A stretch of 64,000 bases of DNA, from positions 12,072,321 to 12,136,320 of the forward strand of contig NC_092578.1 of NCBI RefSeq assembly GCF_037975245.1, read 5' to 3'. The DNA comes from Apostichopus japonicus (taxonomy: Eukaryota; Echinodermata; Holothuroidea; Aspidochirotida; Stichopodidae). The notes under the pieces are model-generated. The model was not told where the DNA came from. It made no database searches and was given only the letters and a program-made list of their open reading frames with translations. The position numbers were made by a program, and so were the translations under genes. Positions 21,585 through 55,665 of this stretch are shown here, piece by piece. The first letter of the stretch is position 1; each line of letters starts with the position of its first letter.

Positions 21585-22110
21585 TTAAACCACAATGCAA
21601 AGTTCATTGAGGTTTCGATGACGTCATTGCACTAGACTTCTACTTGTTAACCAGAAATAGCTGCCACAATGTAAATGGCCTGAACAACTACTGTGATGTA
21701 CAATAACACTATGGCATGGTAAACGCAAGTCAGTCTACTGTACGTGACAATACACACCTCCACCAAAAACAATAGGACGGTATTGTACTCAATGTGATGC
21801 ATCCACACACAAAGTATGAGAAGTATCCACAATTCCCATCGTAAGATATCATGTAAAAGGGTTTTCAGAGTTGACCTCTGGTGACCTCAAATGAGATTTG
21901 ACCTCACAAGCAACAGGATTCTTGCACACAATATGGCAAATCCATATACCATGTATGAAAAGTATCCATGATATACTATGAGAAATTATGATTAAATGTT
22001 TTCAGGCCTCGACACTGAAATATTTATAAAAGTACTCGCTATTTGGCGACCATGACTAAAAATCTACTCCTCAAAACGCAAAATTCACTCGCCATAATGA
22101 CTGTTGTTCA
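21585..22110 (+). repeat. Interspersed repeat, third copy of the unit in the inverted duplication
   Basis: Closely similar to 26567-27050 (+) and to 42870-43340 (-). Shared landmarks are 'gcattgaggtttcgatgac', 'cagtctactgtacgtg', 'tacacacctccacca', 'caggcctcgac' and 'tatttggcgaccatgacta'. Similarity stops near 22110, so this is a truncated member of a family. Confidence 0.85.
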
Positions 22111-22372
22111 AATCGAGATATCGTGTTTACAAAGTTTCACAATTTGACCCCTGGTGACCCCAAATGACCTTTGACCTTTGAAAGAATAGGCATCTTCTAC
22201 TCAAACTGTCTTCTACCCCCTCCCAGCTGGTTGAATTCACCCATCTATATATAGTACACGATACATAAGTCCACAGTACATAGAGAAAAAAAAGAAACTG
22301 ACGAAAGATCAACTTTGAGAGCATACTTACATACATACTTACATACATACTTATATACATACTTACATTACT
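22110..22372. repeat. Dispersed TGACCT-type unit and a short 'acttacatacat' array
   Basis: 'cctggtgaccccaaatgacctttgacctt' near 22150-22180, then a 'tacttacatacat' microsatellite at about 22320-22372. Confidence 0.7.
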
Positions 22373-26545: not shown

Positions 26546-27432
26546 AGCCAACGTATCAGCTAAATGAACCAGAATGCAAAATGCATTGAGGTTTCGATGA
26601 CTTCATTGAACTAGACTTCTGCTTGTAAGTAACCAGCACTAGCTGTTACAATATAAATAGCCCGTACCACGGTTTTGATACAATTACACTATGGTATGAT
26701 AAACACAGGTCAGTCTACTGTACGTGGCTATACACACCTCCACCAAACAGAATAGGGGTCTTGTACTCAATGTTATGAATCCACACACCAATTATGAGAA
26801 GTATCCACGATTAGATATCATGTAACCTCTGGTGACCTCAAATGAGATTTAACCTCACAAGCAACAGGATCTTTTACTCAATATGGCAAATCCATATACC
26901 AATATATGAAAAGTATCCTTGATTTCTACCATGAGAAATCATGTTTTCAAGGTTTTCAGGCCTCGACAAATATTCAAAAGTATTCGTTATTTGGCGACCG
27001 TGACTAAATATGTACTCGCCAAATTTCACTCGCCACTAGGCCTATGATTGTTGTTCAAGTCTCCAAAGAACAGATCTGCAACATCAATACTTTCTATGAA
27101 CACATGTTAGGCAGTTGGGCTGATACATGTTGCTACGTAATTGCACATTGGAAAATTATGTTTCTGTGCAGTATGAAATTTACACTTTTTTTTCACCAAA
27201 AGTAAGTGTTAAACAAAGTAAAACATGTCGAATCATAAATAAACAGCTATGCATACTGTAATGTCTCAAACAATTAAAAATAAAACATCTGTAACAATAC
27301 CTACGAAGATAGCTTCGCTTCTATTACATTAGGGGTCCTATAATACTAAGCAAATACTGTATACAGTCAGGGGCGTCAATCCGATTTGAAACGTGGGGGG
27401 ACGTAATCGATTCGAGTATTCCGGCCGTAAGT

Positions 27433-27475
27433 ACTATCTAAGCGGAGCGCCACCATCGGTTGGCGCGCAGCGTAC
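27433..27475 (+). repeat. Conserved hairpin module, copy 5
   Basis: Same module near the left end of the 4.76-kb hAT, followed by 'cagatcgctggagatggcac'. Confidence 0.85.
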
Positions 27476-28470
27476 CAAGAAAATTTCAGATTTCAATACC
27501 TGCCAGATCGCTGGAGATGGCACTTGCCAGGCTGGATAGCAGCCATCTAGTTGCGTGATTTCGGGTGAAAATTACAAATTCGTCACTCAGGAAATCTGCA
27601 ATAAAGTTCATGCGACCTTCATTTTTGGTGGATTATTTCTTTTATTAGTGATTCCAATTGACATGAACATTAGAACCCAGTGCAAGTTGACAAATGATGC
27701 GGCGAACTGGAACCCCAGCCCAATTTTGCCATATGTTTCAGGATAGAATACCCCTCAATTGTTCGAACCCATGACAACTAACAATCTGTGAATAAATTTA
27801 CTTCGAAATGGGCACATTATATTGCACCAAGTCGGTCAAGGAATGACCCCAGGGCCTCAGATATAGGCCTACAGTATAGCTGGTGTGGGCTACCTTTTTG
27901 AATGAATGGGCCAGATTTTAGAAGCGAAAGATTGACAGGGCCGCACCTAACCAACGACCTGCTGTTGATTTGAAACCTTTGCTTCCGAGGACGTTCAAGA
28001 AATAGGTGTGTGTACTAATCTGTATTCACAAAAACATAATGTCAATACAGTCCAATTGATAATTAAAGGTGATAATAGACCTACCTGACAGCATCATAAG
28101 TGCAGATAAATTCTAGGCAGCTAGTTCGTTTTTTGTGATGATGTAAAAAATCACTGGCGGGCCGCATGTGGCCCGCGGGCCGTAGTTGCCCACCCCTGGC
28201 CTGTAGGAACGATGTCCCAAAATGTCCCGGACATATAGGCGAAGGAAGCTATCCGCCGCGACTGCATGTGAGTTTCTCGACTTGCCGTCCTGGGAGCCGT
28301 ACCCCAAAATTGGTGCATTTCCTCATACGCCATTATTAATAATTTAAATAACTAACTAATTAGGCACAGCCCAGATCCGAGTTCGTATAGTGAGCTTAGC
28401 GCAAATTTGGCCAAAAGTCGTCATACGCCAGCATGTTAAACCACCAATGACTTTTAATACCACCCGTGAC

Positions 28471-29210
28471 CAAGGGCGGCGGAAGCACTTTTAATCTGGG
28501 GGGGGGGGTGCACCAACGTCGAAGGGCACTTTGCAGAAATTCGATTGGACTGATGCAGCCTGATATTTAGTACCCTTTATAACTCTTATTGTATTATCTT
28601 ATTTGCGTATACACATCACTCCATCAACGCCACCCCCCCCCCCCCCTCAAGGAAACAATGCATACTAGCACTGCAATATCTAATGTGCAAATTGGGAAAC
28701 AAGGAAAAAGACAAAATGAGGTGAAATCATTATAAAGTCCAATTCCCTGCACACGCGATCGATACATGCATGAAAGCAAATGAAATATGTGAAAATACTG
28801 AAAGAAAAATAATTTTCTATGTGTTTTTCAATGGTTAAACTGATGTTATTATTATTGTAACGAGGCTTTCCCAATAAATGTAACCAATTTGGAAGGGTTT
28901 TAACACGGCAAATGATTGTATGTTATTGGCATGCGATGTAATAACCAACGCATGCCTATATGATATGCACATTAACATGTTGAATTTTGTAATATTTTTC
29001 GGGCAAGTCGTTACAGCCCCCAAAATCAAATTGGGCTACTACGACTGTGGTAGTAAATATTTAAAACGAAATATTTCATTCGACGTGGGTTTCGCTTTGT
29101 AAACTCTTTTTTAATTTAGAAAGTTTTATGTAGAAAAAGGGCACATTTTTAACCTGAGGAAAAGTGGGGGGCACGTGCCCCCTGTGCCCCCCCCGGTTCC
29201 GCCGCCCTTG
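28471..29210. mobile_element. Nested hAT element, CAAGGGCGGCGG family (copy 2)
   Basis: Perfect terminal inverted repeat CAAGGGCGGCGGAA and perfect 8-bp duplication CCCGTGAC (28463-28470 and 29211-29218). Sister of 18789-19442. Its middle contains a 'tgtgtttttcaatggttaaa' block that also occurs near 31240. Confidence 0.92.
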
Positions 29211-29342
29211 CCCGTGACACATTTCCAACGGGACTGTGTCAGTTTAAATGTATTGCTAGGTCTACGAGAATACATTTCTATGAAATTTGAAACAAGGATG
29301 GCAAGACAAGCCACTTTAATTATGTTTTCAGGACCTCACACG

Positions 29343-30727
29343 CAGTGGCGTCGCCAAGGGGGGCCAGGGGGCACGTGCCCCCTGGAAAACCTAGTGCCCC
29401 CCGAGTGCCCCCCATCTGAGATTTGGGTTGGTAAAAAAATATATAAATATTTTGTTATATTCAACTCCCATCATCTGAGTTGGTTTTTCATAAGGGCAAA
29501 GAAGCATAGTAATTCGTATTTTCTTCAAATGAGCTGCGAAAAAATGAACAAGTTTATCCTTGAACGTCGGGTATCGAAGTCGTAACCCGCGCCATCACAA
29601 CAGGTGTCGATATTTACATTGAATGTGTCAGTGCTCACGCCATACCAGCGGATATGCAAGTCCGCTTCGCGAGCTACATGACTGTGAGAAGGGAGGGTAC
29701 TGCAATATGTTGCCTTGGTCTGAGGTTGACAGGTTAGGAGCTGACGAAATGTGATAATGTGAGGGTCCGCAGGCACCATACTTGCCTATATTTGTGGACC
29801 CATATATTAACCCTGTTGTGTAGGGGGTGCAGAGGTCATTTGAGGTCAGATGCTTGTAGGAACAAATGGCGAATGTTCACACCTGCATACTGAGCCATAC
29901 TCGATGTGTGATCAAACTTTGGATTGCATGGTGAGATCCCTGATAGGAGCCAATAACGATGCTGGAACCTGTTACATCTTAATAGATAATGGGCGAAAAC
30001 GAGAAGGACAAGAAAGGAGTCGGGGTCATGCACACATTAATTCAACAAATGTAGGTTCTATTGATAGGGTTAGGCATAATATCGACAGCATGTGGTTCAT
30101 ATCCTCTGCAAAATTCTGCGCCTTGTTAAAATCATTACCTCAAAAATAGCAATTTCTGGAGATATCTTCAGATCGAATTTAGCATCAAATGTGGCAGCAT
30201 TTTGCATCTAGCCCATCCTCCGTATGCGAAAATTTTCCAAAGGGGAGGGGGGGGGGGCAGTGGCGGCGCAACCGGGGGGCCCCTTACTACACTCAAAAAC
30301 GTCTTTGCGAGTACACTACGAGTAATAGCTACTCTCTTAAAACACCATCGAATATACAAATTACAATGTTTTTACAGACTTTTACGTGCAATCTGAGAAA
30401 TTGCAGGCTTGAGACCCATATTTTAGGGCTAGGTATTCGCAGCATAAAACACTCGGGAAGTGCCGTTTCCGGCCATCTGGGGGTTTGAAAAACCCAAAAT
30501 TTTCTTGTACGCTCCGCGCCAATCGGAGGTGGCGCTCCGCTTAGATAGTCTCTACACATTAGCCCCCCCCCCCCAATAATTTCCCCGTTCCGCCGCGCCT
30601 GGAGGGGCACCCCCTCCCCTTAGACCCCTCCCCAGGACATTGATCCGTATCCACATAAGTGCCCCCCCATCAAATGCTGGTGCCCCCCCTGTGCCCCCCC
30701 AGACTGAAAAGTCTGGTGACGCCACTG
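29343..30727. mobile_element. Nested hAT element, CAGTGGCGTCRCCA family
   Basis: Left end CAGTGGCGTCGCCA and right end (reverse complement CAGTGGCGTCACCA) are inverted. Flanks are CTCACACG (29335-29342) and CTCACACA (30728-30735), an 8-bp duplication with one mismatch. Open frames at 29525-29779 (-) and 29850-30149 (+) carry no motif I recognise. It contains a further insertion at 30258-30601. Confidence 0.82.
30258..30601. mobile_element. Third-level nested hAT-like insertion
   Basis: Starts CAGTGGCGGCGCAACCGG and ends (reverse complement) CAGGCGCGGCGGAACGG. It interrupts a 'ccaaaggggagggg|caccccctcccct' foldback that is intact in sister repeats at 5360 and 11250. The flanking duplication is obscured by the G tract. 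A hairpin module in minus orientation lies at 30507-30549. Confidence 0.65.
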
Positions 30728-30920
30728 CTCACACATGCGCATGTATCGTCAGACTTAGAATAGGTCCCATGTGAGTGGTGGCTAAAGTGATGAAGGCATC
30801 CAAATAAATCAGTGGTTGTTCGTTGGAGTACTCACGCAAGTTACCTCGGTTGCTAGGTGGATCTGCATTTGGTAATCGGGTGAATTCTGGTCGGAGCGTA
30901 CTATGTAACCACCGTGTACC

Positions 30921-31330
30921 CAGGAACGTAGCTAAGGCCTGATGATTGAGAGGGGGGGGGGGGAGCGTGTCTATAGTGGCTGAAAATCCAACTGGATGGG
31001 TTTTGAAGCCAGAAAATTCCGACTGCTGCTTTGTACCCCCCCCCCCCCCCACCCTCGCGCTACTCGTCTACGATACGGTCAGTGTCGGACACCCAATCTT
31101 TCGATACATTTGTATCCACTGGCACTCATTTCACAAATTTATTAGCCCCCCCCCCCACCCCAACCAAATATTTTTGTGAAATTTCGGGCAAAATGCTGAT
31201 AATTTTTCAGGCACCTACTGAAAGAAAGATAATTTGCAATGTGTTTTTCAGTAGTTAAACTTATATTATTATTACCATTAATATTGTAACGACTTCCAAA
31301 TAACTCTAACCAATATGGAAGGGTAATCAC
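30921..31330 (+). mobile_element. hAT-like fragment, CAGGAACGTAGCTAAGG family (copy 1)
   Basis: The first 240 bp match 44836-45060 (shared 'ggcctgatgattg', 'ccaactggatgggttttg', 'aaattccgactgct' and 'cacttcacaaa/catttcacaaa'). The right part matches the middle of 28471-29210. No right terminus found. Confidence 0.6.
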
Positions 31331-31535
31331 TGTGGAGTAAACTCCGGTATCACTCAACAACAAGGTAACATGGGATGCGCTGCCACGGAATATGCTCCCT
31401 ATTTCATTTCCCCAATATTAGGGAACGGGCACCGTCTTTGAAACACCATCTACAACTAAACAACAACTATGTACAAGCTTTGGCTCTAGCTATGAAGTGC
31501 TGTCTCTTATGATAATGACGGAGCGCACTATTTTT

Positions 31536-32007
31536 CTACTGGAATCGCCCGAAGATGCGGCGTCTGTAATCCGAGGAACCAACGAACTTCTCTGCTAACT
31601 CCTCAGGCTTCAACTGGGCTAGACGTTCGCGGTGAATATGGCACACCATCACATGGTTCAGCCTATGTTGAGTCATGGTGCTCCGTAGCCATGTTTTCAA
31701 ACGCCTCAAAGCACTAAATTATCTCTCGACGAGGAGACGAGGAGGACCACAAGAGAGCTTCGACTTCACCAAACATAGCCCGTACCGCTGGATTCATCAA
31801 CTTGAATATTTGTCCATACCCTTCAACCGACGACGACTGGAACTGGCCTCGAAAGAAAGGCAGACTAAGCTTAAGATTGTCGGAGAGCTCAGGGTACCAA
31901 CTCACGAGATCTGGATGGAATTCTCCATTCAGCAACATTGAGTGATATTCGAGGATATGAATCCTGAGATGTGTAGTCCTAACCAAATAGAGCCACGTCA
32001 TTACTCT
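31536..32007 (-). pseudogene. Decayed hAT transposase, C-terminal dimerisation domain
   Basis: The segment runs from about 32007 down to a stop at 31536-31538 on the minus strand. The first part reads 'KRVMTWLYLVRTTHLRIHIL' and later 'FKLMNPAVRAMFGEVEALL'. After a frameshift near 31740 it continues 'FSALRRLKTWLRSTMTQHRL' and ends 'DYRRRIFGRFQ'. The 'ER-S-FSALRRLKT.LRSTM' block is the signature of the hAT C-terminal dimerisation domain (zinc-finger MYM/Tip100-like members). The Ser codon between ER and FSALRR is now TAA (31719-31721). The zinc finger and catalytic core are absent. The fragment lies just inside the right end of the 4.76-kb element, supporting its hAT assignment. Confidence 0.85.
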
Positions 32008-32429
32008 TTTTCCAAATGTGTGTGTGGGGGGGGGGGGGGAGGACATTTGATATTGTTTCCACCACCCATCGAAATGTGGGGGGGGGGACGTGTCCCCGTC
32101 CCCCTCCCCCTGGATTGACGCCCATGTATACAGTATAGCTATAGGTGTGCGCGAGTCCTTAGCCTATACAGTACCTCTCTGCTACTTTGAACCGCTATTC
32201 GATTTATCGCTATTACTCCATTACACTGTCTAAATCAAAGCGATCTTTACGCAATGAAATCTGAGGTTGTAAAAGCATCTATCTGCCACAAAACCCGAAC
32301 AGCAAAGAACAGCAAACAAGTCTCTAAAGTCTTGAAATTGTTGTATACTTTGCGAATTATGACTGTTAGCCAGTGGGGAAAGTGCATTGGTATATATCCT
32401 GACTGGTATTCTGCACGTTGTTGTGTTAA

Positions 32430-33086
32430 AAACGGCCAGGTCGATAACGCGGAAACCGCGGAAATTGATAAACTGAGTTCGGTAATCGAGATACCGGGTT
32501 CGATATCAACGGTTTCCGCGCTTTCCACGTTATCTACCTTGCAAGGTCGAAAACGCGGAAAGCGCGGAAACGAGAGGAATTTGTCAAGGGAGGGTGACGA
32601 AGTCTTTTGGGCGCATTTCAGCCTATATGCGCCAGGAAGGGTTGCGGGTTTAAAGCTATTTCATTAAATGTAGGTCGATAAAGCGGAAATCTTAAAGTTC
32701 ACAATGGATGAGTTAGATTATTTAGTCAAGGGAAGGTGAAAAGGTTTTTTGGGCGCATTGCAGCCAATATGCGCCAGGAGGGGTGGCGAAGGGCTAAGGT
32801 TTTTTTTTTAAATTAATGCATGTCGAAAGCGCGGAAATGTTTTTTTACACAATGAATGGCGAAACTATAGGAATTTGTCAAGGGAGGGTGAAGAGTTTTC
32901 GGCGCATTTCAGTCAATATGCGCCAGAAAGGTGATGGGGTTGTAGGCATTTTCTCTAAATGCAGGTCGAAAACGCGACCTTGCTATATAGCAAGGTCTTT
33001 AATGCGGAAAGCGCGGAAACTGTTGATATCGAACCCGGTATCTCGATTACCGAACTTCCGCGGTTTCCACGATATCGACCTGGCCG
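32430..33086. mobile_element. TTAA-targeted element with long inverted ends and three internal palindromic units
   Basis: TTAA occurs at both edges (32426-32429 and 33087-33090). The sister arm has a single TTAA at the same place (42005-42008), so this is an insertion with a TTAA duplication. Inverted ends of about 110 bp begin CGGCCAGGTCGATA. Between them are three tandem units of about 140 bp with 'gcggaaa', 'tttgtcaagggagggtga' and a hairpin GGCGCAT...ATGCGCC. A perfect 22-bp palindrome GACCTTGCTATATAGCAAGG(TC) lies near 32975. TTAA targets are typical of piggyBac and Kolobok. No transposase. Confidence 0.82.
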
Positions 33087-33867
33087 TTAACGAACCCAAT
33101 CTTTCCCAACGAGACGACATCCAACCTGAAATATGACGGATAAAAGTCAAATAGCACCGCTGTATGTACAAGAGTACATCTTTTTGCACGCAAAGTAAGG
33201 CCTCCGAGCTACACGTTGAAACCTATTCAGATATGTTCGAGTTGTCAGTTTTGAGTTTTAGATTCTACGGATACCCATAAGCTTATTTCAATTGCCAACA
33301 ACCTCCTGTTCGTATGGGGCGTAACGCACATGTTATCTGATAGACTGGTCGGTAGGAGAAACGGTAGCTTATATAACAAGATGTCCACAATTTGGCGTCT
33401 GGTGACTCCAAATGACCTTGGACCTCCAAAAAAACATGATGCTTCTTGTACCGAATGTTTCGCAACCACATACTAAATATGAGATTGGTCCAAGCTTTCC
33501 TTCTTGAGATATCGTGTTTACAATGATTTCACAATTTGACCCCTGGTTACTCCAAATGACCTTTAACGTCCATTAAACAGCTATAGGTTTTTTCCTATAT
33601 GTTGTTCTCTTATACACGAAATATGAGATTGGTCCAAGCTTCTCTTCTTGAGATGTCGTGCTTACAATGTTTTCACAATTTGACACCTGGTGACCCGAAA
33701 TTACATTTGACATTCTCTATAAACAATATGGTTCCTCTATTTAATTTGGTACACCTACTCACCAAATATGAGATTTGTCCAAGCTTCCCTTCTTGAGATA
33801 TCGTGTTTACAAGCGAGGCGTCACACACACATGCACACACACACACACACGCAAACCTGACTACATA

Positions 33868-33893
33868 GGTTCCTTTTGCTAAAGCAAGGAACC
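33868..33893 (+). repeat. Terminal hairpin of the dispersed TGACCT-type repeat
   Basis: GGTTCCTT..GC and GCAAGGAACC pair around TAAA. It is followed by 'aaaaag'. A counterpart with a different stem lies at 47716-47745. Confidence 0.6.
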
Positions 33894-34051
33894 AAAAAGA
33901 ATATTGAGGCACAGTCCCTTTAAAGGCCCACCCACTCAGCTCATTTGCCTCCCCCCCCCCCAGTAGTTCCTTTTTTTGCATGTAACAAAAACATGATTAC
34001 ACGAGGCTAACAATTCATTTTCACCTAACTTTCCCATACGGCTTCCTCTCA

Positions 34052-34157
<106 letters not shown>

Positions 34158-34369
34158 TACGGCTAGCACCAGAATGCCCTAGCGTGCATGTATATATCCA
34201 ATTACCTGTGTAAAACAACGAATATAAAAAACTCTATAGTGACGTAAAATCCTATTTCCCCCTAACAAGTCTTTTCTAATTTTTCTAAATAACCCTTCTT
34301 TTTTTAAGCTTAAATTTTTAAAACATGAGATCCCCAAATTAAGAAAGTTTAGATGCAACTGACAAGGCC

Positions 34370-34496
34370 TGGGACGTGCCACTTCCGGCAATCTGGGAGT
34401 CTTTCTTTGCAAAACTTTTCTACCTACGCTACGCGACAACTGATGAATGACAACTGATGAATGTTTAGATGCAACATCATCCGCTTAGATAGTGTC
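34370..34496 (-). mobile_element. Broken hAT-derived fragment with remnants of the hairpin module
   Basis: 'gtgccacttccggcaatctggg' and 'ccgcttagatagtgtct' are the two outer parts of the module block, in minus orientation, separated by a rearranged centre. No termini are visible. Confidence 0.5.
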
Positions 34497-34944
34497 TAGA
34501 GTTCTTTATAGGAATACAAAGGAATTATAATAGTGTTATGATGGTCTTTTTGGGGAAATGACGCACATACTAAAAAAAAAATCATTAAAAGGGCCATGGT
34601 ATATACGCACATCAAAGCATCACAAATGTAACAATTGGACGACACATGATGTTCTCGATGTTCCTCAACTGCCCTCTAGAGATTCTGCCCAAGCTGTGGC
34701 TCTGAGGTATCCTCTTTATCTTTATAGGTTTTTATGTTCCGGTAAAGTGAATGTGTCCCGATACTCAATAGAGTTTATTAAATGTTCATATGATGCCATA
34801 TGTGTGCAGGTTGTAGACATTTTGTGTGACAAGATTACTTTATTCTTAGTAATGCTTCTGTTATGGGGTTAAGTTTCAATTGTATTAATCTTGATAAAGG
34901 CCCTAAGTAACGCCCGGATGTTAAATAGAAAAGTCTTTCTTCAT

Positions 34945-35780
34945 TTAAGAAAGGCTTCTGACACTGGTCTGACGCTGGATTATCCCTATCATTAACGAGT
35001 GGTCTGGCATTAAATTATGCCTTTCAGTGACGAGTGACCTGACACTGGAGTATACCTTTCAGTGGCGCGTGACCTGACACTGGAGTATCCCTTTCAGTGG
35101 CGCGTGACCTGACACTGGAGTATCCATTTCAGTGGCGCGTGGCCTGACACTGGAGTATACCTTTCAGTGGCGCGTGACCTGACACTGGAGTATCCCTTTC
35201 AGTGGCGCGTGACCTGACACTGGAGTATCCATTTCAGTGGCACGTGGCCTGACACTGGAGTATCCCTTTCAGTGGCGCGTACCTGACACTGGAGTATCCC
35301 TTTCAGTGGCGCGTGACCTGACACTGGAGTATCCCTTTCAGTGGCGCGTGACCTGACACTGGAGTATCCCTTTTAGTGGCGCGCAGTCCGACGTTGGATA
35401 AGTGACGTAAAGTCTGACACTGAGTTATCGTGTATTATGACACTGAAGCATTCCTTCACGTGCCGTGAAGTCTAACACTGTATACCTTTTAGTGAAGCGT
35501 GGTCTGTCATACCCTTTCTAAGCGAAGCATGGTCAGAAATTGAATTTTCCCTTGAAGTAACCCGTGGGCTGTCACTGTGTTATCCCATTAGGTAACACGC
35601 GGTCTGGTACTGGATTATCCCTTCTAGTAACATGTTGGCTGGTACTGGATTACCCCTTTAAGTAACGGATGTTCTGAGACTGGAATCTACCTTTCAGCAT
35701 GGCTTTCAGTGTACTGGATTACCCTCTTAAAGAGATTCTTGGTCTAACACTATTATCCCTTTAGGTGTAGCGCAACCTGG
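34945..35780. repeat. 35-bp minisatellite
   Basis: The core at about 35025-35390 has ten near-identical units 'gacctgacactggagtatcc' + 'ctttcagtggcgcgt'. Increasingly diverged units continue on both sides, to about 35780 on the right. The decay outward from a uniform core is typical of a VNTR. Confidence 0.92.
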
Positions 35781-36731
35781 CAATTTATAATACTCTTTAA
35801 AGTTGAACTAGGGTTGAAGAATGTGCCTGTAAGTTTCTGGTTTATTCATTCTGTATTCATTTTTTTCAGTCATTACTTCAACTGATAGAAATTCACTGTA
35901 CATATTGAAGAAAATGTACCCTTTGGATATGCTGTTAAAACAGATATGGTTAAGGGTTTAGAGTGTTATTGTGGTCCTTGGATAACTAGCAGTTGTTGAC
36001 ATTCAGTGAAGCTTTTTAATTCGTTTTAGAATATCCCTAGAATCAAAAAGAATACTTTCTACGGAGGAAGGAGATGGAAGAAAATAAACCATTGTAACGG
36101 CTTGACCTTAAAGTGCAGTATACAGTGCTACACCGTGTATACGTTAGTCCCCCCCCCCCCCCTTTAACCAAGCTGACAAACAGATAGTAAATGTTTTACT
36201 TCAAAAATATTTCATTTATTCTACCACACGGGAACTTGTCACAACCTTCTGCTTCCCTCAGTTGGTCCCTCGGAGTCTCGAACTTACGTCAACAACTGGT
36301 CACGAATTCGTATGTGACAAATAAAAACAAAACAATAACAAGATCTCATTTTTTTGTCAGTTTATTACACAATATTACCGTTACCCTAGTAACCCCACTG
36401 AATACCCTCTTATGTGAAGTACATATTAAAAGTGATCCTTCTTGAGGTTATGACCGAGACGGCTTTTCTGTGACAGTTTAGGAGATACATGCAGACGTGA
36501 AGCGGCCACGTGGCAGTACTCACATATATAAGGAAATAAATGAAATGAAAAAAAGAAATCGTAGAAACTACTTGAAACACACCTGGGTTCATTTTATATA
36601 GTATCGTAAACAGAATGCTATCCTTCTGGAGGGGTAAAAGATCCCCAGGTAAACGATATCGTCAAGAAATGCACAGTCACCCTGAACTGCTAACATAGAC
36701 GTGAGTGTTGGGGCAGTTTTAAGGAGACCTA
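35781..36731. other. No gene recognised
   Basis: Contains a C tract near 36150. Nothing else. Confidence 0.4.
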
Positions 36732-36739
36732 ATGAGTAT

Positions 36740-37547
36740 CAGCGACGTAGCCAGGAATTTGCAAGGGGGGGGGGACACATTTTGATTGATTGATTTGATT
36801 TAAATGGGGGAAGGTATAAGGGGAGGGGTATCCCCCTCCCCTTTGAGAAATTTTTGAACAATTGAAGGTCCTTAGATGCTATCTGGTGCATTATCATATG
36901 ATATCATATTATCAGCAGATTTTGTTTCCGGTTTGAATTATTCGACGATCTTTTACATGTTCGATCTTTTACATATTATATCAGAAAGACAAACATAGTG
37001 CTCATTTATAAAAAAAATCCAGTAGGATGATTATTGTTTATTGTCCAATGTCTGGAATTAAATACATTTGACGAACTTAACTGACGGACAATACACTTGT
37101 ATATTCAGCAGTGTAATAATTATTTATAGGAAGCGCGTATCACGTATGATTGATAGCTTAGCTTCATAACATGCTGTTCGTGCAACAACTTATGACGAAT
37201 CATAGAAAGGATGAGAACGCACGCACGTTGTCGTCGCTGTGCATATACGGTCCGTGACACTCCATCGGGTGCGGTTAGGTAGGCTATATGTATTTTATTA
37301 CGCAGTGGCCAACGGTAGGATTGTAATAGGCTATAGGCTAGGGTTAGCTAATTGCATCTGCCAAACTAAGTAGTTGAATCAGTAGGCGTGAATGTTACAA
37401 CGATTATAATCGAGTTAACGGAGCTGACGAGTATTCAAGATCAAAAGAGAACTGACAAAATACCATGCCAAAAACAACAGTTTTTAACATTTGTTCGACA
37501 CTGAGAGGGGGAGCAGTTGCCCCCTGCTCCCCCTGGCTACTTCCCTG
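36740..37547. mobile_element. hAT-type element with perfect 8-bp target duplication
   Basis: Left end CAGCGACGTAGCCAGG and right end (reverse complement CAGGGAAGTAGCCAGG) are inverted. Flanks are the perfect duplication ATGAGTAT (36732-36739 and 37548-37555). The interior is AT-rich and non-coding. Confidence 0.85.
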
Positions 37548-37606
37548 ATGAGTATGACCCCACATAAGTAAACACCCTCCTGTAGATGGTTTTCAACAAA
37601 TGAAGG

Positions 37607-38175
37607 TTGAAGGATTGGTTCAGGTGTTTGACATGTCTATTTTGTATGAAAGAGCACAAAAAGAACAGTGAAGAAACTACCATGATAGAATGCTCTGTTA
37701 AGGAGATATGACACTTTGAAGATATCAAAATTTCTTTGAAAACGACTGGTGTAGAAAGACTTACTGTGAGGGTGTGACGTCACATCCTCACTTCCTTAAC
37801 ATTTGTGAATATATTTCTTTAAAAATTATTTACATTTTTTAACACATTTGAAAATATTATAATCAAAAGTTCTTCAGATGTTTAATCTCAAATACTTCCT
37901 TTGACAAATATGAAATCTCCTGACATATCTTTTGGTTGAAAGTCATGAAATCTCACAAAATATTAAGAGAAAAATACAAAGACTTTCATGAATGTGAGGA
38001 TGTGACATCACAGCTAGTCAGATTTCAGCACTGTCTACACAATATGATAAAACTTTACACTTGAACATCTCTTTAACCGAAAAAGATATTTGAACAGTTT
38101 TTTCACCATTGTGTTTCTTTTATTGTCCTCTTTCATATAACATAAACATGCATGACAACTGAACCAATCCTTTAA
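37607..38175. mobile_element. TTAA-type foldback MITE
   Basis: The left edge TTGAAGGATTGGTTCAG and right edge CTGAACCAATCCTTTAA (allowing one insertion) are inverted. The imperfect inverted ends reach about 190 bp inward to a 'gtgacgtcacatcctcac' / 'gtgaggatgtgacatcac' pair. It is probably a TTAA-targeting family with one target copy mutated. Confidence 0.65.
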
Positions 38176-39240
38176 GTAAGTAATTGATAATTCCATTCGA
38201 TTCTTAACATATCTTCATCCTGCTTTTCCATAGTAATAGTTGTAATATGAGAGCAAATTGAAATTTAAAACCTTTTCGATATATACAATATATATAATAC
38301 TTAAAATGAAATTGTGATGGCCTCGAACTGACAAATCTGATGTAAAGCGGGGAGTTGCCTCTCGGAATAGCAATTCCCTGCTTAGAGAGACACCGGCTAT
38401 AGCTATAGGCTATGTTTCAACCGTACTGGTCACGAAATATCAAAGATTAAAAACAAAGTTAATTTATAACATATTAATAGTTTCTTAACCTTGTCAACGC
38501 TTCTCGAAACGCTAAAAATGCGCGTGATGTTGTCAGCGTCAGATGTAGAAAGCCGTAAGAGCGTAAACAAGCCATAAATTAGGAACTGGAATGCACTCTT
38601 ACGTAAACAAAAACATTTGGCCTTTCTGACTGATGACTTGATAGATATTGCTCTTTGACCTTCGCCATTGTTTGTCGCATTCTGCCAATTGACAGCTGGT
38701 TGTTCTGTCAGAACCATTCAACATTTAACTAGTTTAGTTCGATGTTTGAATGTCAACAAAAGCATCGACCTTGTTATTCGTGGATTTATCATTTATCTTG
38801 ACTTACAAAACTGTAGCCCAAGTAATAGAAGAGAAAAGTAGTCCTAGAAGTAAAATTTTATTATTGCTGCCTGTGATTTCTTGGAAGGTTTATAAGATTG
38901 TTGCTATTTATGATGTAGAGATGAATTGAAATGATAGAGCCACATTATAAAAGCCTCATGCAGATCGGCATAGGTTGTACAGCTCCCAAGTATACATTTT
39001 GTAATTTGGATGCAGATTGTCCCTTTAGAGTATTTGATGAAAATATGTGGCAAGTCACTTTGGCGTATAGTCCAAAATCATAGATGTCTTTTAATATTTA
39101 AATATATCTTCACTAAATATATAAATTATATTTAAATCGCCCTACATTTTAAGCGGCTCCAGCGACTCCAGATTTTACCCCGTCTTAATAAAATCCTTGA
39201 TTCGCCTAAGGCCCTTTGAACCTTTCTGTACTTGCAGCAG
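38176..39240. other. No gene recognised
   Basis: A frame at 38430-38717 (-) has no recognisable motif. Nothing else seen. Confidence 0.4.
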
Positions 39241-39244
39241 ATAC

Positions 39245-39362
39245 TCATATATATGGTACAGCAACTACTGTTCATGTCCCACAACAGTGCATCAGTTATT
39301 ATACTTTGTGTTCGTAACACGGTAACATGTGTTACAGGTGACACTGTAACAACTGCAAAGCT
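39245..39362. repeat. Direct repeat flanking the foldback (left copy)
   Basis: 'ggtacagcaactactgttca' with 'tgtcccacaacagtg' and 'gtaacatgtgttacagg' recur at 40558-40650. A further inverted piece lies at 40648-40690. The foldback sits between these copies. Confidence 0.65.
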
Positions 39363-39368
39363 GTAACT

Positions 39369-40307
39369 TACGGAAGCGTAGAAGGGACATGGTGATGAAA
39401 GAGAAACAAACTCGTCAAAATGACAAAATTCAGAAAAATGACGTTTTGCCGAGTTTAACAACTCGTCAAAACGACAAAATTATTAAATTTGCCGAGATGC
39501 AACAAGTCGTCAAAATGACAAAATTCTGAAAATTGACGTTTTGCCGAGATAAAATAACTCATCAAAATGACAAAAATCTGAAAATTGACGTTTTGCCGAG
39601 ATACAACAAGTCGTCAAAATGACAAAATTCCGAAAATTGACGTTTTTGCCGAGATACAACAAGTCGTCAAAATGACAAAAATCTGAATCTTAACGGTTTG
39701 CCGAGATACAACAAGTCGTCAAAATGACAAAAATCTGAAAATTGACGTTTTGCCGAGATACAATAACTCATCAAAATGACAAAAATCTGAAAATTGACGT
39801 TTTGCTGAGATACAACAAGTTGTCAAAATGACAAAAATTTGAAAGTTGACGTTTTGTCGAGATAAAACAAGTCGTCAAAATGACAAAAATTTGAAAATTG
39901 ACGTTTTGTCGAGATAAAACAAGTCGTCAAAATGACAAAATTCTGAAAATTAACATTTTGCCGAGATACAACAAGTCGTCAAAATGACAAAATTTTGAAA
40001 ATTGACGTTTTGCCGAGTTACAACATGTCATCAAAATGACAAAATTCTGAAAATTGACGTTTTGCCGAGATACAACAAGTCGTCAAAATGACAAAATTCT
40101 GAAAATTGACGTATTGAGTTGTTGTATCTCGGCAAAACGTCAATTTTTAGAATTTTTTCATTTTGACGACTTATTGTATCTCGGCAAATTTAATAATTTT
40201 GTCGTTTTGACGAATTGTTAAACTCGGCAAAACGTCATTTTTCTGAATTTTGTCATTTTGACGAGTTTGTTTCTCTTTTATCACCATGTCCCTTCTACGC
40301 TTCCGTA
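39369..40307. mobile_element. Foldback element with about 190-bp inverted ends and a 53-bp internal minisatellite
   Basis: The left end from 39369 (TACGGAAGCGTAGAAGGGAC...) is matched nearly perfectly by the reverse complement of 40115-40307. GTAACT flanks both sides (39363-39368 and 40308-40313), a possible 6-bp target duplication. Between the ends lie about a dozen units of 52-53 bp, 'caacaagtcgtcaaaatgac' + 'aaaattctgaaaattgacgt' + 'tttgccgagata'. Non-coding. Confidence 0.88.
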
Positions 40308-40313
40308 GTAACT

Positions 40314-41024
40314 TGTTCCCATGTATAAGACAAAGAACTGCGAGACTGGACAAGGAGTCTATGAAGATGAGAATGCCTAAAAGATGAAGTAAAGGAGGTA
40401 CGGTACCGCTTCATTCCATTTCACACCTCTCTTTAAATCACGCCAATTCGTCATGCCGAGAACGAAGAAAGGCCATGTTCGGGTATATCCATAGGCCAAC
40501 TTATAGCATAAAACGACTAGATACGACTTCATTTTAGAATCGGAACTCGCACTAAATGGTTGGTACAGTACCTACTGTTCATGTCCCACAACCGTGGATC
40601 AGTAATGACTACTTTGCGTTCATAACACGTTAACATGTGTAACAGGACATGAACAGTAGTTACTATATACCAACTATGAGTATCGGCTGTTACTTGTCAG
40701 TTCCGCAGCAGATTTTGGTCACGTTCGGCTCCGCTGATCGTGTTCACTGAATCATTTGATTTTTGGTTTCGATGATAATCGTAACCTATGCGGTCATGCT
40801 GGCGGATGAGTGTGTGTGTGTGCGGTGGGTGCGTGTGTGCGTGCGTTTGTTTTGCTATCTGACCGAGGACTTGAACAAAAGAATTTCAGGTCCTCGGTTG
40901 TGATTTCTAAAGAATCACCACGTCCTCGGAAGAATTCTATTGTATGGGGTATTGTTAAAGTTAGGGTACGTGGATTTGAACAATGGAAAATACAATGGGG
41001 CCCTCGGTCTGAATGAAACACAAA
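40314..41024. other. No gene; edge of a repeat
   Basis: 40820-40920 matches 63925-64000 ('gaccgaggacttgaacaaaa', 'caggtcctcggttgtgattt'), a dispersed repeat. A GT-rich stretch lies near 40808-40850. Confidence 0.5.
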
Positions 41025-43340
41025 CATGTGTGTGTGACGCCTCGCTTGTAAACACGATATCTCAAGAAGGGAAGCTTGGGCCAATCTAATATTTGGTGTA
41101 TATGAGTACCGCATGAGTAGAAGAACCATATTGTTTAGTGGGGGAGGTCAAAGGTCATTTGGGTTAACCTTTTAACGATATCAAAAGAAGGAAAGCTTGG
41201 ATCAATCTCGCATTTCGTGTGAAGGAGAACCACATTAAGTTCAAGATGCCAATTGTTTTTGGTAGAGGTCCAAGTCCATTTGGGGTCACTAGAGGTCAAA
41301 TTGTGAAAACCTTGTAAACACGATAACTCAAGAAGGGAGGTTGGACGAATCTCATATTTAGAATGTAGTTGGTACACGTTCAGTACAAGATTTTATTGAG
41401 GTCAAAGGTCATTTGGAGTCACGAGACTCCAAATTGTGGAACCTTGTTTTATAAGCTACCGTCTCTCCCACAGACCAGCCTATTAGATATAATGTGCGTT
41501 ACGCCTCATACGAGTAGGAGACTATTGGCAATTGGAGATGAGCTTATGGGCATCCGTAGAATCTAAAACATAAAGCTCGACCAAATTTGCATTTGCCGCT
41601 CGGAAGCCTTATTTTGCGTGCAAAAAAAGTGAGTACTTTGCAGTACAGCGGTTCTATTGGACGTTTTTCGTCGTTTTTATTTCAGGTTGGATGTAGTTTC
41701 GTTGTGACCAGGCAGCGTTTATGAAACTTAACCGTTCGTCTAGTTAGAGTTTTTACTATGAACAATGCGAAATAATTGTGTAAAACGGTCTTAGTTTGGC
41801 AGTGAGTTCACGAGCTTTTGTCTGGATCGGCTGTTGATCTCAATTGTGTAGTGTCTTCCACCAGTTTCAGCATAGCTAGGCCTTAAAAGTAACGTTCCAC
41901 TTTCGTCACGTTTATGATTATGGGACAACTTGAACAAACCTGGGTAGGCATGTGAGCAATTTTATGTTGTCTAGGCCAGCAACGGTTGGGTAGAATAGGG
42001 TTCGTTAACACAACAACGTGAAGAATACGAGTCAGAATACAAATACACTTAAGATGGCAAAACATCTCCTTCATTATTTCTTAAGGCAATTTTCCTACTG
42101 GCTATCAGTCATAATTCGCAAAGTATAGAACAATTTAAGGGGTTTTGAGACCAGTTTGCTGTTGTTACTGCTAACAACCTCAGATTTGCGTAAAAGATCG
42201 CTTTGATTTAGGCAGTGTAATGGAGTAATAGCGATTTTTTTCGCGCATCAATCTGCAGATAAAAGACAGATAAATAATTGGGAAAATGTACGAAGTCGCC
42301 GCTCTAATCGAGTAGCGGTTCAAAGTAGCAGTGAGGTACTGTACATGCTTAGGACTCCCGCACACCTAGTTACTGTATACAGTACTGTATACAGTACTGT
42401 ATATAGTTACTGTATACAGTAACTAGGTGTGCGGGAGTCTGTATATGCTTAGGACTCCCGCACACCTAGTTACTGTATACAGTACTGTATACAGTACTGT
42501 ATATAGTTACTGTATACAGTAACTAGGTGTGCGGGAGTCCTAAGCATATACAGTACCTGCCTAGTAAAGTAGAGGAGCCCTAATTTAACAGAAGCCAAGC
42601 TATCTTTGTAGGTATTTCTTACAGATGTTGTATTTTAATTGTTCGAGACACTACAGTAGGCCTAGCTGCTTATTTATGATTCTGCGTCATGTTTTACTTT
42701 GTTCATTACTTACTTTTGGTGGAAAAAGGTTAAATTTCATACTGCACAGAAACATAATTTTCCAATGTGCAATTACTTAGCACCATGCGTCTGCCTAAGT
42801 GCCTAATATTTTTCACAGGAAGTATTGATGTTGTAGATCTGTACTATGGAGACTTGAACAGCAATTATAGCCTATTGGCGAGGGAAATTTGGCGAGTAGA
42901 CTTTTAGCCACGGTCGCCAAATAGCGAGTACTTTTAAAAATTTAGTCGAGGCCTGAAACCTTCAAAACATGATTTCTCATGGTAGAAATCATGGATACTT
43001 TTCATATATGGTAAATGGATTTGCCATATTGAGTACAAGTATCCTATTGCTGGTGGGGTCAAATCTCCTATAGGTCACCAGAGGTCAAACTCTGAAAAAC
43101 CTTGTACATGATATCTAACGATGGAAATCGTGGATACCGCTAATACTTGGTGTGTGGATCATAACACTGAGTACAATACCCGTATTGTTTTTGGTGGAGG
43201 TGTGTATAGCCACGTACAGTAGACTGACCTGTGTTATCATGCCATAGTGTTATTGTAACAGCTAGTTCTGGTTATACTAACAAGCAGAAGTCTAGTGCAT
43301 TGAAGTCATCGAAACCTCAATGCATTTTGCATTCTGGTTT
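41025..43340 (-). repeat. Right arm of the large inverted duplication
   Basis: Reverse complement of 26567-33833 minus its insertions. It holds the empty sites for the 4.76-kb hAT and for the TTAA element. It has about 276 bp (41708-41983) that the left arm lacks, bordered by 'gttg' microhomology. It also carries the expanded double palindrome at 42335-42557. Confidence 0.85.
42335..42557. repeat. Tandem double palindrome
   Basis: Two 89-bp palindromes (42352-42440 and 42452-42540), each 'ggactcccgcacacctagtt'...'aactaggtgtgcgggagtcc', are repeated with a 100-bp period. The centres are ACTGTATACAGT repeats. The outer flanks also pair ('gaggtactgtacatgcttag' with 'taagcatatacagtacct'), making the whole 223-bp block a palindrome. 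Confidence 0.95.
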
Positions 43341-51001: not shown

Positions 51002-51070
51002 CATGTACCATAACCTTAACTAAACCCCAAAACAATAGAATTCTTCCAATGGTGTGGTGACTCCTTTCAA

Positions 51071-52010
51071 AAATCTTGCAAGTTGGTTGAAGTTTCTTCC
51101 AAGATCACAAGCTTAAACCAGATGATAGATACTGTACTGTAGCAAAAAACAATATCAGTGACTGAATGTTACAAGTTAAGCATAGAAGTATCTATGCCAT
51201 TGTATGAGAAAACAAGGACACTGAGGGTATACAGCACTTGGTACAAATCAGGATAACTCGATTTAACTCTTGATATAACTCTTAAAGTTCTTAGAACTGA
51301 AAATCTTGCAAGTTGGTTGAAGTTTCTTCCAAGATCACAAGCTTACACCAGATGATAGATACTGTACTGTAGCAAAAAGCAATATCAGTGACTGAATGTT
51401 ACAAGTTAAGCATAGAAGTATCTATGCCATTGTATGAGAAAACAAGGACACTGAGGGTATACAGTGGTACAAATCAGGATAACTCGATATAACTCTTGAT
51501 ATAACTCTTAAAGTTCTTAGAACTGAAAATCTTGCAAGTTGGTTGAAGTTTCTTCCAAGATCACAAGCTTAAACCAGATGATAGATACTGTACTGTAGCA
51601 AAAAGCAATATCAGTGACTGAATGTTACAAGTTAAGCATAGAAGTATCTATGCCATTGTATAAGAAAACAAGGACACTGAGGGTATACAGCACTTGGTAC
51701 AAATCAGGATAACTCGATTTAACTCTTGATATAACTCTTAAAGTTCTTAGAACTGAAAATCTTGCAAGTTGGTTGAAGTTTCTTCCAAGATCACAAGCTT
51801 AAACCAGATGGTAGATACTGTACTGTAGCAAAAAGCAATATCAGTGACTGAATGTTACAAGTTAAGCATAGAAGTATCTATGCCATTGTATAAGAAAACA
51901 AGGACACTGAAGGTATACAGTGGTACAAATCAGGATAACTCGATATAACTCTTGATATAACTCTTGATATAACTCTTGATATTACTCTTGATATAACTCT
52001 TGATCTGCAA
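51071..52010. repeat. Higher-order tandem array, 230/226-bp units (A-B-A-B)
   Basis: Units anchored on 'cttgcaagttggttgaagtt' start at 51075, 51305, 51531 and 51761. Units 1 and 3 carry 'cagcacttggtac' and 'gatttaactc'. Units 2 and 4 carry 'cagtggtac' and 'gatataactc'. So the true repeat is a 456-bp dimer. It ends in a 12-bp array 'ataactcttgat' (51945-52005). Confidence 0.93.
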
Positions 52011-52277: not shown

Positions 52278-53807
52278 CTTTAACACAAAATGACCAACAC
52301 TCTCAAATTTCATTCCTCCATAGTAAACAATAGCAAACAAATCCGAAAAGTTGTGATGTTAATAGCATGATTTAAAGTCTAAAAATATCAAAGCACTTGC
52401 TGTCACATGTGATTACCACCTCTTGCTCTTCTTATCCTCTCTTGGGGAATAAAGAGTGGATCATTACTTTCAGACACAGTAATCTGAGTCAATGGAAGTG
52501 ATTAGACCGTCTTCAAACCCATAATGAGAGCCATTTTGATTATTCCTGCGCCCCATAAATCATACTCAAGTGGGACTTGAAAGGCCAACTCACTAGAAAA
52601 GTGAAGTAGGAGACATCTTGTTAACAGAAATGACTGGAACTTGAAATAAAACATTATTAGAGATGGTGATGAGTTGTCAGTTCTTCTTATTTGATGGATT
52701 GTTTAAATCTCTTCCGGAAGGAACTATAACATTCCATCTGTCTGTTCCTTTTGATTGAGACCATGAAATTTAATCATTTCCTACCAAACCTCTCAAATAC
52801 AAATGAGGACAAACAGAGGCTTAACTGCTTCATTTTGACCTAACATAATATCCAGCCTACAGTAATTGAGGTAATACTACTGTCACATGCTACCAATTTT
52901 ACAAGTACATTATTGAAAACAAATATTCGCGGAGGGTGAAACCCATATCAGACTGTTTGGTGATATAAAGTATCTGTTGTTAAAGTTAGGCTTATAATGG
53001 AAGAAGCGATATCCTGATCAAACATTTTTGGAGTATGAAAGATTGAATGTCTGGAAAAGAGGTATACTAGATGAATTGGCTACGAAGATATGAAGATATT
53101 TAAGCGTTTAGAAGTCTAAAAGAAAAGATATATAATTATGGTCGGGGGTTTTCCAGATTCGACTATAAAATAGTTCTTAGTTAAAGATCTTTTTTCTTAG
53201 GGTTACAGGTATATTACTGTAGAGGAGGAGGGGGGGGGGGTAGATTGCAGGAGGATATGGGCATTAAACATATAAAAGTTTATGAATGAGCAATGAGGCG
53301 AATATGCAGATTAATCTAGTGGTAGCGCAGGGGAGTGGGGAGGAGGGGCGGATTATTATGCGGATATCAAACAATTTTTTTTTTTGCACACCTATAATTT
53401 GCATGATGAAGAGATCAATATTACAAAAACAGTCAACTACTTGAAGAGACCTCATCTTTTCTGATCCTTGGACAAAGTGAACTAATGTGTCTGATTCACA
53501 CACAAGTGGTGATTAGTCACAGAACAGAATCTTCCAATGTATGAGTGATGGCTCAAAAATGCAATCTTCTTCAGTAACCAGATTAGAAGTGAAAGGAGGG
53601 CATACAGTATCTCTAACACTGTTAAACAGGCACTCACACAGTACTGTAAATATTTCTGTATGTGATCTTCATGAACGTAGATGCAAATAGGAACTAAATC
53701 TATGTAAAATTAAGAGATGGGGCTAACTACATAAACTGCATTGAGTATGACACTCTGATAACATCCAAGAAACATATGACAGCAGTTCTGAGTCACCAGC
53801 CCTCAGA

Positions 53808-54942
53808 TGACTAAGCCCAGAGATACTGCCACTACCATGACTAGGCCCAGTGACACTGCCACTACCATGACTTAGCCCAGTGATACTGCCACTACCATGA
53901 CTAGGCCCAGTGACACTGCCACTACCATGCCTAAGCCCAGTGATACTGCCACTACCATGACTAAGCCCAGTGACACTGCCACTACCATGACTAGGCCCAG
54001 TGACACTGCCACTACCATGACTAAGCCCAGTGACACTGCCACTACCATGACTAGGCCCAGTGACACTGCCACTACCATGACTTAGCCCAGTGATACTGCC
54101 ACTACCATGACTAAGCCCAGTGATACTGCCACTACCATGACTAAGCCCAGTGACACTGCCACTACCATGACTAAGCCCAGTGACACTGCCACTACCATGA
54201 CTAAGCCCAGTGACACTGCCACTACCATGACTAAGCCCAGTGACACTGCCACTACCATGACTAGGCCCAGTGACACTGCCACTACCATGACTAAGCCCAG
54301 TGACACTGCCACTACCATGACTAGGCCCAGTGACACTGCCACTACCATGACTTAGCCCAGTGATACTGCCACTACCATGACTAAGCCCAGTGATACTGCC
54401 ACTACCATGACTAAGCCCAGTGACACTGCCACTACCATGACTAAGCCCAGTGACACTGCCACTACCATGACTAAGCCCAGTGACACTGCCACTACCATGA
54501 TTAAGCCCAGTGACACTGCCACTACCGACTAATCCCAGTGACACTGCCACTACCATGACTAAGCCCAGTGACACTGCCACTACCATGACTAAGCCCAGTG
54601 ACACTGCCACTACCATGACTAAGTCCAGTGACACTGCCACTTCCATGAATAAGCCCAGTGACACTGTCACTACCATGACTAAGCCCAGTGATACTGCCTC
54701 TACCATGACTAAGCCCAGTGATACTGCCACTACCATGACTAAGCCCAGTGATACTGCCTCTACCATGACTAAGCCCAGTGATACTGCCACTACCATGACT
54801 AAGCCCAGTGATACTGCCACTACCACGACTAAGCCCAGTGATACTGCCTACTGCCACTACCACGACTAAGCCCTATGACACTGCCACTACCAATACTAAG
54901 CCCAGTGATACTGCCACTACCTCGACTAAGCCCAGTGACACT
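53808..54942. repeat. 30-bp minisatellite, about 37 copies
   Basis: Unit 'ctaagcccagtgacactgcc' + 'actaccatga'. Because 30 is divisible by three and few units contain stops, long frames stay open on both strands, including one of 367 codons (53723-54826, minus). These are artefacts: the frame has no start context and the repeat sits inside the MOB4 intron. Variants (cttag, ctagg, gatac) recur with a 270-bp (nine-unit) higher-order period, for example at 54081 and 54351. Each unit contains the inverted repeat CAGTG-A-CACTG. Confidence 0.97.
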
Positions 54943-55039: not shown

Positions 55040-55665
55040 TGACATACAGTACTTTAACATGTCTGCATTTAAGTTTGCATCACTCAATGTGATTCCCATG
55101 GTGAAGTCTGTTATTAGGTTTATAGCATCATTCAATTCATTTAACTTCCAACTGTGAGGTTAATATTTAAGTTAGCATTAATTAATGTGATTCCCCATTC
55201 TGAGGTTTGTATTTAAGTTAGCATCAATCAATGTGACTTCCCATTGTGAGGCTAATATTTAAGTTAGCATCAATCAATGTGATTCCCATGGTGAATTCTG
55301 TATTTAAGTTAGCATCAATCAATGTGATTCCCAAGGTGAAGTCTGTTATTAGGTTTATAGCATCATTCAATTCATTTAACTTCCAACTGTGAGGTTAATA
55401 TTTAAGTTAGCATTAATTAATGTGATTCCCCATTCTGAGGTTTGTATTTAAGTCAGCATCAATCAATGTGACTTCCCATTGTGAGGCTAATATTTAAGTT
55501 AGCATCAATCAATGTGATTCCCATGGTGAATTCTGTATTTAAGTTAGCATCAATCAATGTGATTCCCAAGGTGAAGTCTGTTATTAGGTTTATAGCATCA
55601 TTCAATTCATTTAACTTCCAATTGTGAGGTTTATATTTAAGTTAGCATCTACCATAATAATTTTA
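55040..55665. repeat. 235-bp higher-order tandem repeat of about 58-bp subunits
   Basis: The marker 'gtgaagtctgttattaggtt' recurs at 55101, 55336 and 55571. Subunits share 'atttaagttagcatcaatca' and 'atgtgattccca'. Confidence 0.93.

Follow-up and report, generated by a model that had tools for sequence, protein, structure and literature searches.

Two inverted copies of a HINE/DINE-1-like family in the Apostichopus japonicus genome, one with unlike ends and later nested insertions

Two collinear units in inverted orientation

The window analysed here, meaning the whole stretch under study, comprises 64,000 nt of the holothuroid Apostichopus japonicus (assembly GCF_037975245.1, contig NC_092578.1, positions 12,072,321-12,136,320, forward strand). 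It carries two inverted, collinear units, the left and right arms or copies, which very probably inserted independently of each other and in opposite orientations, both as members of one non-autonomous Helentron family of the HINE/DINE-1-like kind. The locus is for the most part ordinary, a pair of copies from a new HINE family together with later nested insertions; what stands out is the left copy with its mixed ends.

When the window was compared with itself, the arms aligned in inverted collinear blocks at 42547-43339/27363-26567 (81.7% over 835 columns), 42306-42381/32204-32125, 42083-42235/32388-32206 and 41025-41707/33833-33104 (75.3%). The best block scored 803 bits; when the window was shuffled 50 times in two-base blocks, the right arm scored no more than 33.7 against it, and the collinear inverted copies described in an initial annotation of this DNA are thus real. 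Their limits had been drawn too short, as the units reach 40765 on the right and 33893 on the left. The third, truncated copy reported there is also present (Table 1); a 5' end was looked for in it and none was found. An artefact of assembly is unlikely because the arms have diverged (75-82% in the gapped comparison, 90.2% over aligned core columns) and because their flanks are different.

A dispersed family with the layout of a HINE

Searches of the window's own assembly (671.6 Mb in 35 contigs, denoted C1, C2 and so on, with fetched copies denoted L009 and the like) placed the right arm in at least 124 pieces, its own place included (40 candidates scored); among the matches listed, those above 500 bits outside its own place were 79-94% identical and lay on many contigs. 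The left-arm core was found in 44 pieces, again including its own place, with the right arm not among them, and its four best other matches by score, on C3, C8, C23 and C19, stood at 84%. With so many dispersed copies the unit is therefore a repeat family, as the initial annotation had allowed for when it hedged that the unit might be mobile and proposed a search of the whole assembly.

Twenty genomic copies were fetched to serve as outgroups. The DNA beyond the 3' border differs between them, apart from three groups that share flanks, namely L010/L023/L024 (C11), L025/L026 (C1) and L017/L018/L028 (C7; L015 on C22 has a stretch resembling theirs). Such sharing suggests either that larger segments were duplicated afterwards or that the copies inserted into repeats.

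The right copy opens at 40765 with GGTTTCGATGATAATCGTAACC, which combines a 5' subterminal inverted repeat (subTIR), GGTTTCGATGA, and a partial inverted repeat (IR), ATCGTAACC. This 5' border, called type A below, occurs in nine of the 20 fetched copies as well as in the right copy, and the 3' border, CTCAATGCATTTTGCATTCTGGTT, is present in 18; together the two borders show that the right copy spans 40765 to about 43340. From 5' to 3' the subTIR and IR are followed by a GT tract, tandem repeats (the TGACCT-type units that the initial annotation had remarked upon), a long core, the 3' subTIR TCATCGAAACC, the palindrome AATGCATTTTGCATT and the terminal CTGGTT. The 5' end folds at -4.7 kcal/mol (z -2.87 against shuffles) and the 3' end at -6.5 kcal/mol (z -3.48), and the two subTIRs, at 40765 and 43306, match at 11 of 11 positions when complemented. 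Extended by its next five bases, one position being A or G, the type-A 5' end has 163 exact copies in the genome and its reversed control none, and at least TT precedes the 5' end in all ten type-A ends and in the left copy too. Allowing up to one mismatch, TCATCGAAACC occurs four times in the window where 0.77 are expected, as many being found in one of 100 shuffles; all four are exact, and each sits at the end of a family copy.

The plan of DINE-1/HINE elements comprises subTIR, IR, microsatellite, central repeats and 3' stem-loop (PMC4067079; PMC2374699), and their mobility is attributed to Helentrons with an endonuclease-bearing Rep/helicase (PMC4067079). Here the 5' subTIR with its partial IR takes the form GGTTTCGATGA...ATCGTAACC in type-A copies and another form, type B, in the left copy; a complementary internal 3' subTIR is found in the right copy and not in the left; and the 3' palindrome near the terminus, the microsatellite and the central tandem repeats are all present. 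It is highly unlikely that the family consists instead of cut-and-paste transposons, with GGTTTCGATGA as terminal inverted repeat (TIR) and an accidental hairpin at the 5' end. An 11-bp motif is indeed inverted at the two ends, but it is terminal at one of them and lies about 24 bp inside the other, where a palindrome follows; moreover, no target-site duplication (TSD) was seen in ten flank pairs, and the layout is that of DINE-1/HINE feature by feature.

Some additional sequence is private to the right copy, a distinction that the initial annotation had not drawn. Anchors around the palindrome stretch and hAT site (see below) were located in 18 of the 20 fetched copies, failing in L027 and L028. 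They enclose 227 bp in the right copy versus 48-66 bp in 17 of these 18; in the eighteenth, L019, they are 558 bp apart owing to a different insertion. The expansion is 91% self-complementary, contains a 100-bp unit twice, and is built of inverted and direct copies of the local stretch. We do not favour a separate miniature inverted-repeat transposable element (MITE) as its source, the material being the family's own, and we infer that it arose by template switching at a hairpin.

Table 1. Positions in the window of the family copies, their termini and the elements inserted in them
Feature	Positions	Strand	Remarks
Right copy of the HINE family, 2,576 bp	40765-43340	+	5' end 40765; 3' end ~43340
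5' subTIR GGTTTCGATGA with partial IR ATCGTAACC, right copy	40765-40786	+	fold, genome count
End of GT tract and TGACCT-type tandem repeats, ~120-145 bp	41025-41450 (right limit approximate)	+	repeat copy number variable
Private palindrome expansion, right copy	42334-42558	+	anchor-to-anchor length, self-complementarity
3' end, right copy: subTIR TCATCGAAACC (43306-43316), palindrome AATGCATTTTGCATT, terminus CTGGTT	43306-43340	+	
Left copy (apparent mosaic), interrupted by hAT-type and TTAA insertions	26567-33893	-	5' end 33893; 3' end ~26567
5' terminus GGTTCCTTGCTTTAGCAAAAGGAACC (type B), left copy	33868-33893	-	fold, genome count
3' subTIR TCATCGAAACC (type A), left copy	26590-26600	-	unmatched to the copy's own type-B 5' end
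hAT-type element, 4,759 bp	27367-32125		8-bp TSD GTATACAG; within left-copy motif CTGTATACAG
Nested element, 1,385 bp, inside the hAT-type element	29343-30727		flanks CTCACACG/CTCACACA (7/8), terminal CAGTGGCGTC
TTAA element, 657 bp	32430-33086		~110-bp imperfect TIRs
GTTG at deletion scar, left copy	33107-33110	-	
Third copy, 3' part of core and 3' end	21587-22114	-	self-comparison, 3' border

Independent insertion or local duplication

The initial annotation had read the arms as a local inverted (segmental) duplication that was followed by two transposon insertions in one arm, and in favour of this stand the inverted orientation and collinearity of the two copies, with some 7 kb between them. 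Such a duplication is now scarcely credible. The unit is dispersed through the genome, the arms stop at the family's own ends with nothing in common outside (the longest match between their 400-bp flanks does not exceed 15 bp), and they differ in the type of their 5' termini, A in the right copy and B in the left. It is these two points, the unrelated flanks and the differing termini, that decide against a local duplication. Copies elsewhere are, besides, equally close or closer: over the 3' core, the left arm is 90.2% identical to the right arm, a value that 12 of the 16 genomic copies compared surpass, reaching up to 93.3%, and in a tree of the core a split with support 84 groups the right copy without the left, so that the arms are not sisters. 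The tree includes 16 of the 20 fetched copies, the core pieces of L010, L016, L017 and L019 being shorter than 450 bp.

Several observations weigh against two independent insertions of such a family. The core tree is star-like and several of its supports are low; measured from the left core, just two fetched copies, at 90.4 and 90.3%, come ahead of the right arm at 90.2%, a margin of tenths of a percent with which a duplication would be compatible. No 5' end was located in 11 of the 20 fetched copies. Finally, the joined flanks of L017, the single locus tested, showed no empty site in the genome: of 99 candidates 40 were scored, all on C7, and three matches span the joint in part (query 26/27-120, 84-87%), one of them lying at L017's own 3' end. 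From these matches it seems that C7, at about 1.8-12.2 Mb, holds multiple copies of a segment into which this HINE had inserted once, and the 3' flank of L015 on C22 is similar. With independent insertion as the preferred reading, a supposed structural rearrangement gives way to a dispersed transposon family, and the locus becomes a filled/empty-site case with many outgroups.

Insertions and a deletion in the left copy

Viewed against the 20 outgroup copies, the polarity of filled and empty sites is clear, as none of the other copies measured shows the hAT-type insertion, the TTAA insertion or the loss of about 280 bp. The hAT-type element, whose coordinates in the initial annotation were correct to about one base, has GTATACAG on either side (8/8) and TIR-like ends TCAGGGGCGTCAATCC and GGATTGACGCCCAT. 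Its site is unoccupied in 17 of the 18 measurable fetched copies, the exception being L019 with another insertion there, and two of its open frames, scanned with a hAT transposase in view, gave no Pfam match. The 1,385-bp element nested within it, with long genome matches that are 94-98% identical, is a second hAT-like insertion into the outer one. As a separate observation, the window holds a foldback element at 39369-40307, which combines long arms in inverted orientation with tandem repeats of 52 bp, and in a comparison by eye the insertion of L019, in the same region as the hAT site of the left copy, begins like it.

At the second site, TTAA at 32426-32429 and again at 33087-33090 bounds exactly 657 bp, where the right copy has TTAA once; the length and the TTAA duplication given in the initial annotation are both exact. 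The element may be piggyBac- or Kolobok-like. The site is uninterrupted in all 20 fetched copies, with the four letters intact in 16 and substituted in L009, L010, L023 and L024. Relatives of the element in the genome are often paired in inverted orientation over a span of about 2.7-3.0 or 7.2 kb, and from these pairs the 657-bp element seems to consist of both ends of a longer parent joined together.

The deletion measures 284 bp from GTTG to GTTG in right-copy coordinates, with GTTG at both edges. The piece of it that was tested in the outgroups, 276 bp at 41708-41983, is present in 20 of 20, and we therefore conclude that the left copy lost this piece and a few more bases; a gain in the right copy is rejected on the same count, and the deletion with gttg microhomology that had been suspected in the left arm is real. 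From the order of events first proposed, what survives is that the insertions are younger than the copies, their sites being empty in the outgroups, while the duplication at the start does not. Elsewhere in the window, tandem arrays occupy 53807-54942, 51070-51965 and 55062-55648 (30-, 230- and 235-bp units).

The mixed ends of the left copy and candidate autonomous partners

The left copy starts with the type-B 26-mer GGTTCCTTGCTTTAGCAAAAGGAACC, which folds at -6.6 kcal/mol (z -2.99) and recurs without mismatch at 570 places in the genome, its reversed control at none. Counted by eye, the left copy agrees at 49 of the first 50 bases with a type-B end on C5 that lies upstream of an open Helentron frame. 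After the GT tract, the copy belongs to the type-A family and it closes with the type-A 3' subTIR, so its ends mismatch, and to judge from its sequence it looks like a mosaic in which a type-B 5' terminus has been set before a body and 3' end from another family. Alternatively, a separate type-B element, or the remnant of one, might adjoin a family copy truncated at its 5' end; type-B ends are common, as the 570 exact copies attest, and the GT tract at the junction with the body is simple sequence. We think this unlikely: besides the hairpin itself there is no 3' motif resembling AGCAAGGAACC at the junction, and the distance from hairpin to body, 71 bp, falls inside the 47-80 bp of the type-A copies L009, L016, L019 and L027. 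As a lead only, L026, which starts with GGTTACTTGC, might be a second mosaic, now decayed.

The type-B terminus may lead to an autonomous partner. The genome has 50 Helitron_like_N matches, and among nine Helentron regions that were read, seven have open frames of 2,064-2,489 amino acids (aa) and two are broken; the one frame scanned has OTU, PIF1 and endonuclease domains. Across C1-C7 (the type-B places listed reach only into C7), a type-B end lies 9.6-10.9 kb upstream, on the same strand, of three of the four Helitron_like_N matches, the fourth being a weak fragment on C4. The Helentrons with type-B ends have open frames of 1,597 aa (C3), 2,447 aa (C4) and 2,064 aa (C5), and at least five T precede each of these ends. 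Following the open frame in five of the seven Helentrons are GCAAGGAACC, the complement of the type-B start, then GCAGTGCCCTTGGGCTCTTGTT, and then DNA that differs. Because the 5' ends lie upstream of frames and the complementary 3' motif after them, the type-B ends most likely belong, as a pair, to Helentrons whose frames are still open, with distances from end to end of about 15.9 kb (C5) and 17.2 kb (C4).

Other findings fit less well. The GCAAGGAACC motif was not found in the stretches read of C14 and C15, and the fold of the 3' end presumed for these Helentrons does not surpass that of shuffled sequence (z 0.20). An autonomous partner for type A was sought in the same nine Helentron regions, and none of them has an exact type-A subTIR; a single match with one mismatch occurs on C5, outside the Helentron and past the point where its 3' end probably lies.

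The surroundings of other Helentrons deserve a remark. In the region L058 (C17:19759500-19769400), another HINE family, with subTIR GATTCTTCGCC/GGCGAGGAATC (by eye), lies downstream of a broken Helentron; it too ends in CTGGTT, and its repeats are related ones of the TGACCT type. C17 itself, 37.2 of the 671.6 Mb, has 32 of the 50 Helitron_like_N matches, 30 of them within 15.7-24.4 Mb, many with short or interrupted frames and a few of them pieces of one gene, while C22 has six within 20.2-20.6 Mb.

It is conceivable, if doubtful, that the left copy jumped as a mosaic instead of being formed where it stands, with non-matching subTIRs from two Helentron lineages working together. Were this so, the rolling-circle machinery would read the 5' hairpin and the 3' subTIR and palindrome separately, and the GT microsatellite between 5' terminus and body would have a role as the joint of exchange, at which HINE families swap 5' ends; mobile elements with mixed ends would thereby offer such families a route to a new autonomous partner.

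A proposed course of events

By analogy with published families, the family would have been copied in trans by the Rep/helicase/endonuclease of a Helentron, via a rolling-circle intermediate, and the copies would have inserted into T-rich DNA. The 5' terminus of the left copy appears to be that of a second lineage, most likely the Helentrons with open frames; the GT tract would be the place where it became linked to the body of the family, with template switching or recombination as the probable mechanism. Once inserted, the left copy lost about 280 bp and took up the hAT-type and TTAA elements, the outer hAT-type element itself receiving the second hAT-like one. In the right copy, the central quasi-palindrome grew by copying itself in both direct and inverted form.

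Comparison with known systems

In the descriptions of DINE-1/HINE elements and Helentrons (PMC4067079; PMC2374699), the same subTIR, IR, microsatellite, central repeats and 3' stem-loop appear as here, along with a partner whose Rep/helicase bears an endonuclease. Unlike those elements, the left copy has two subTIRs that differ, and unlike the published Helentrons, the autonomous elements here would be about 16-17 kb long, judging from two end-to-end distances. Tsp of sea urchin and Pearl of bivalves are likewise mentioned as DINE-1-like or HINE (PMC4067079; PMC7492417).

A close parallel in layout may be drawn with Cg_HINE of the oyster Crassostrea gigas (PMC7492417). Both have an 11-12 bp subTIR with a complementary IR, a short microsatellite, a variable spacer, central tandem repeats, a 3' subTIR and a palindrome, and both are dispersed in both orientations, apparently into T-rich targets in each case. 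The sequences are different, and a right flank of 60 bp in Cg_HINE compares with a core of about 1.7-1.9 kb after the repeats here. The oyster study could link none of the autonomous elements described there to the HINEs, whereas for one of the two kinds of 5' end in A. japonicus there is now a candidate autonomous lineage.

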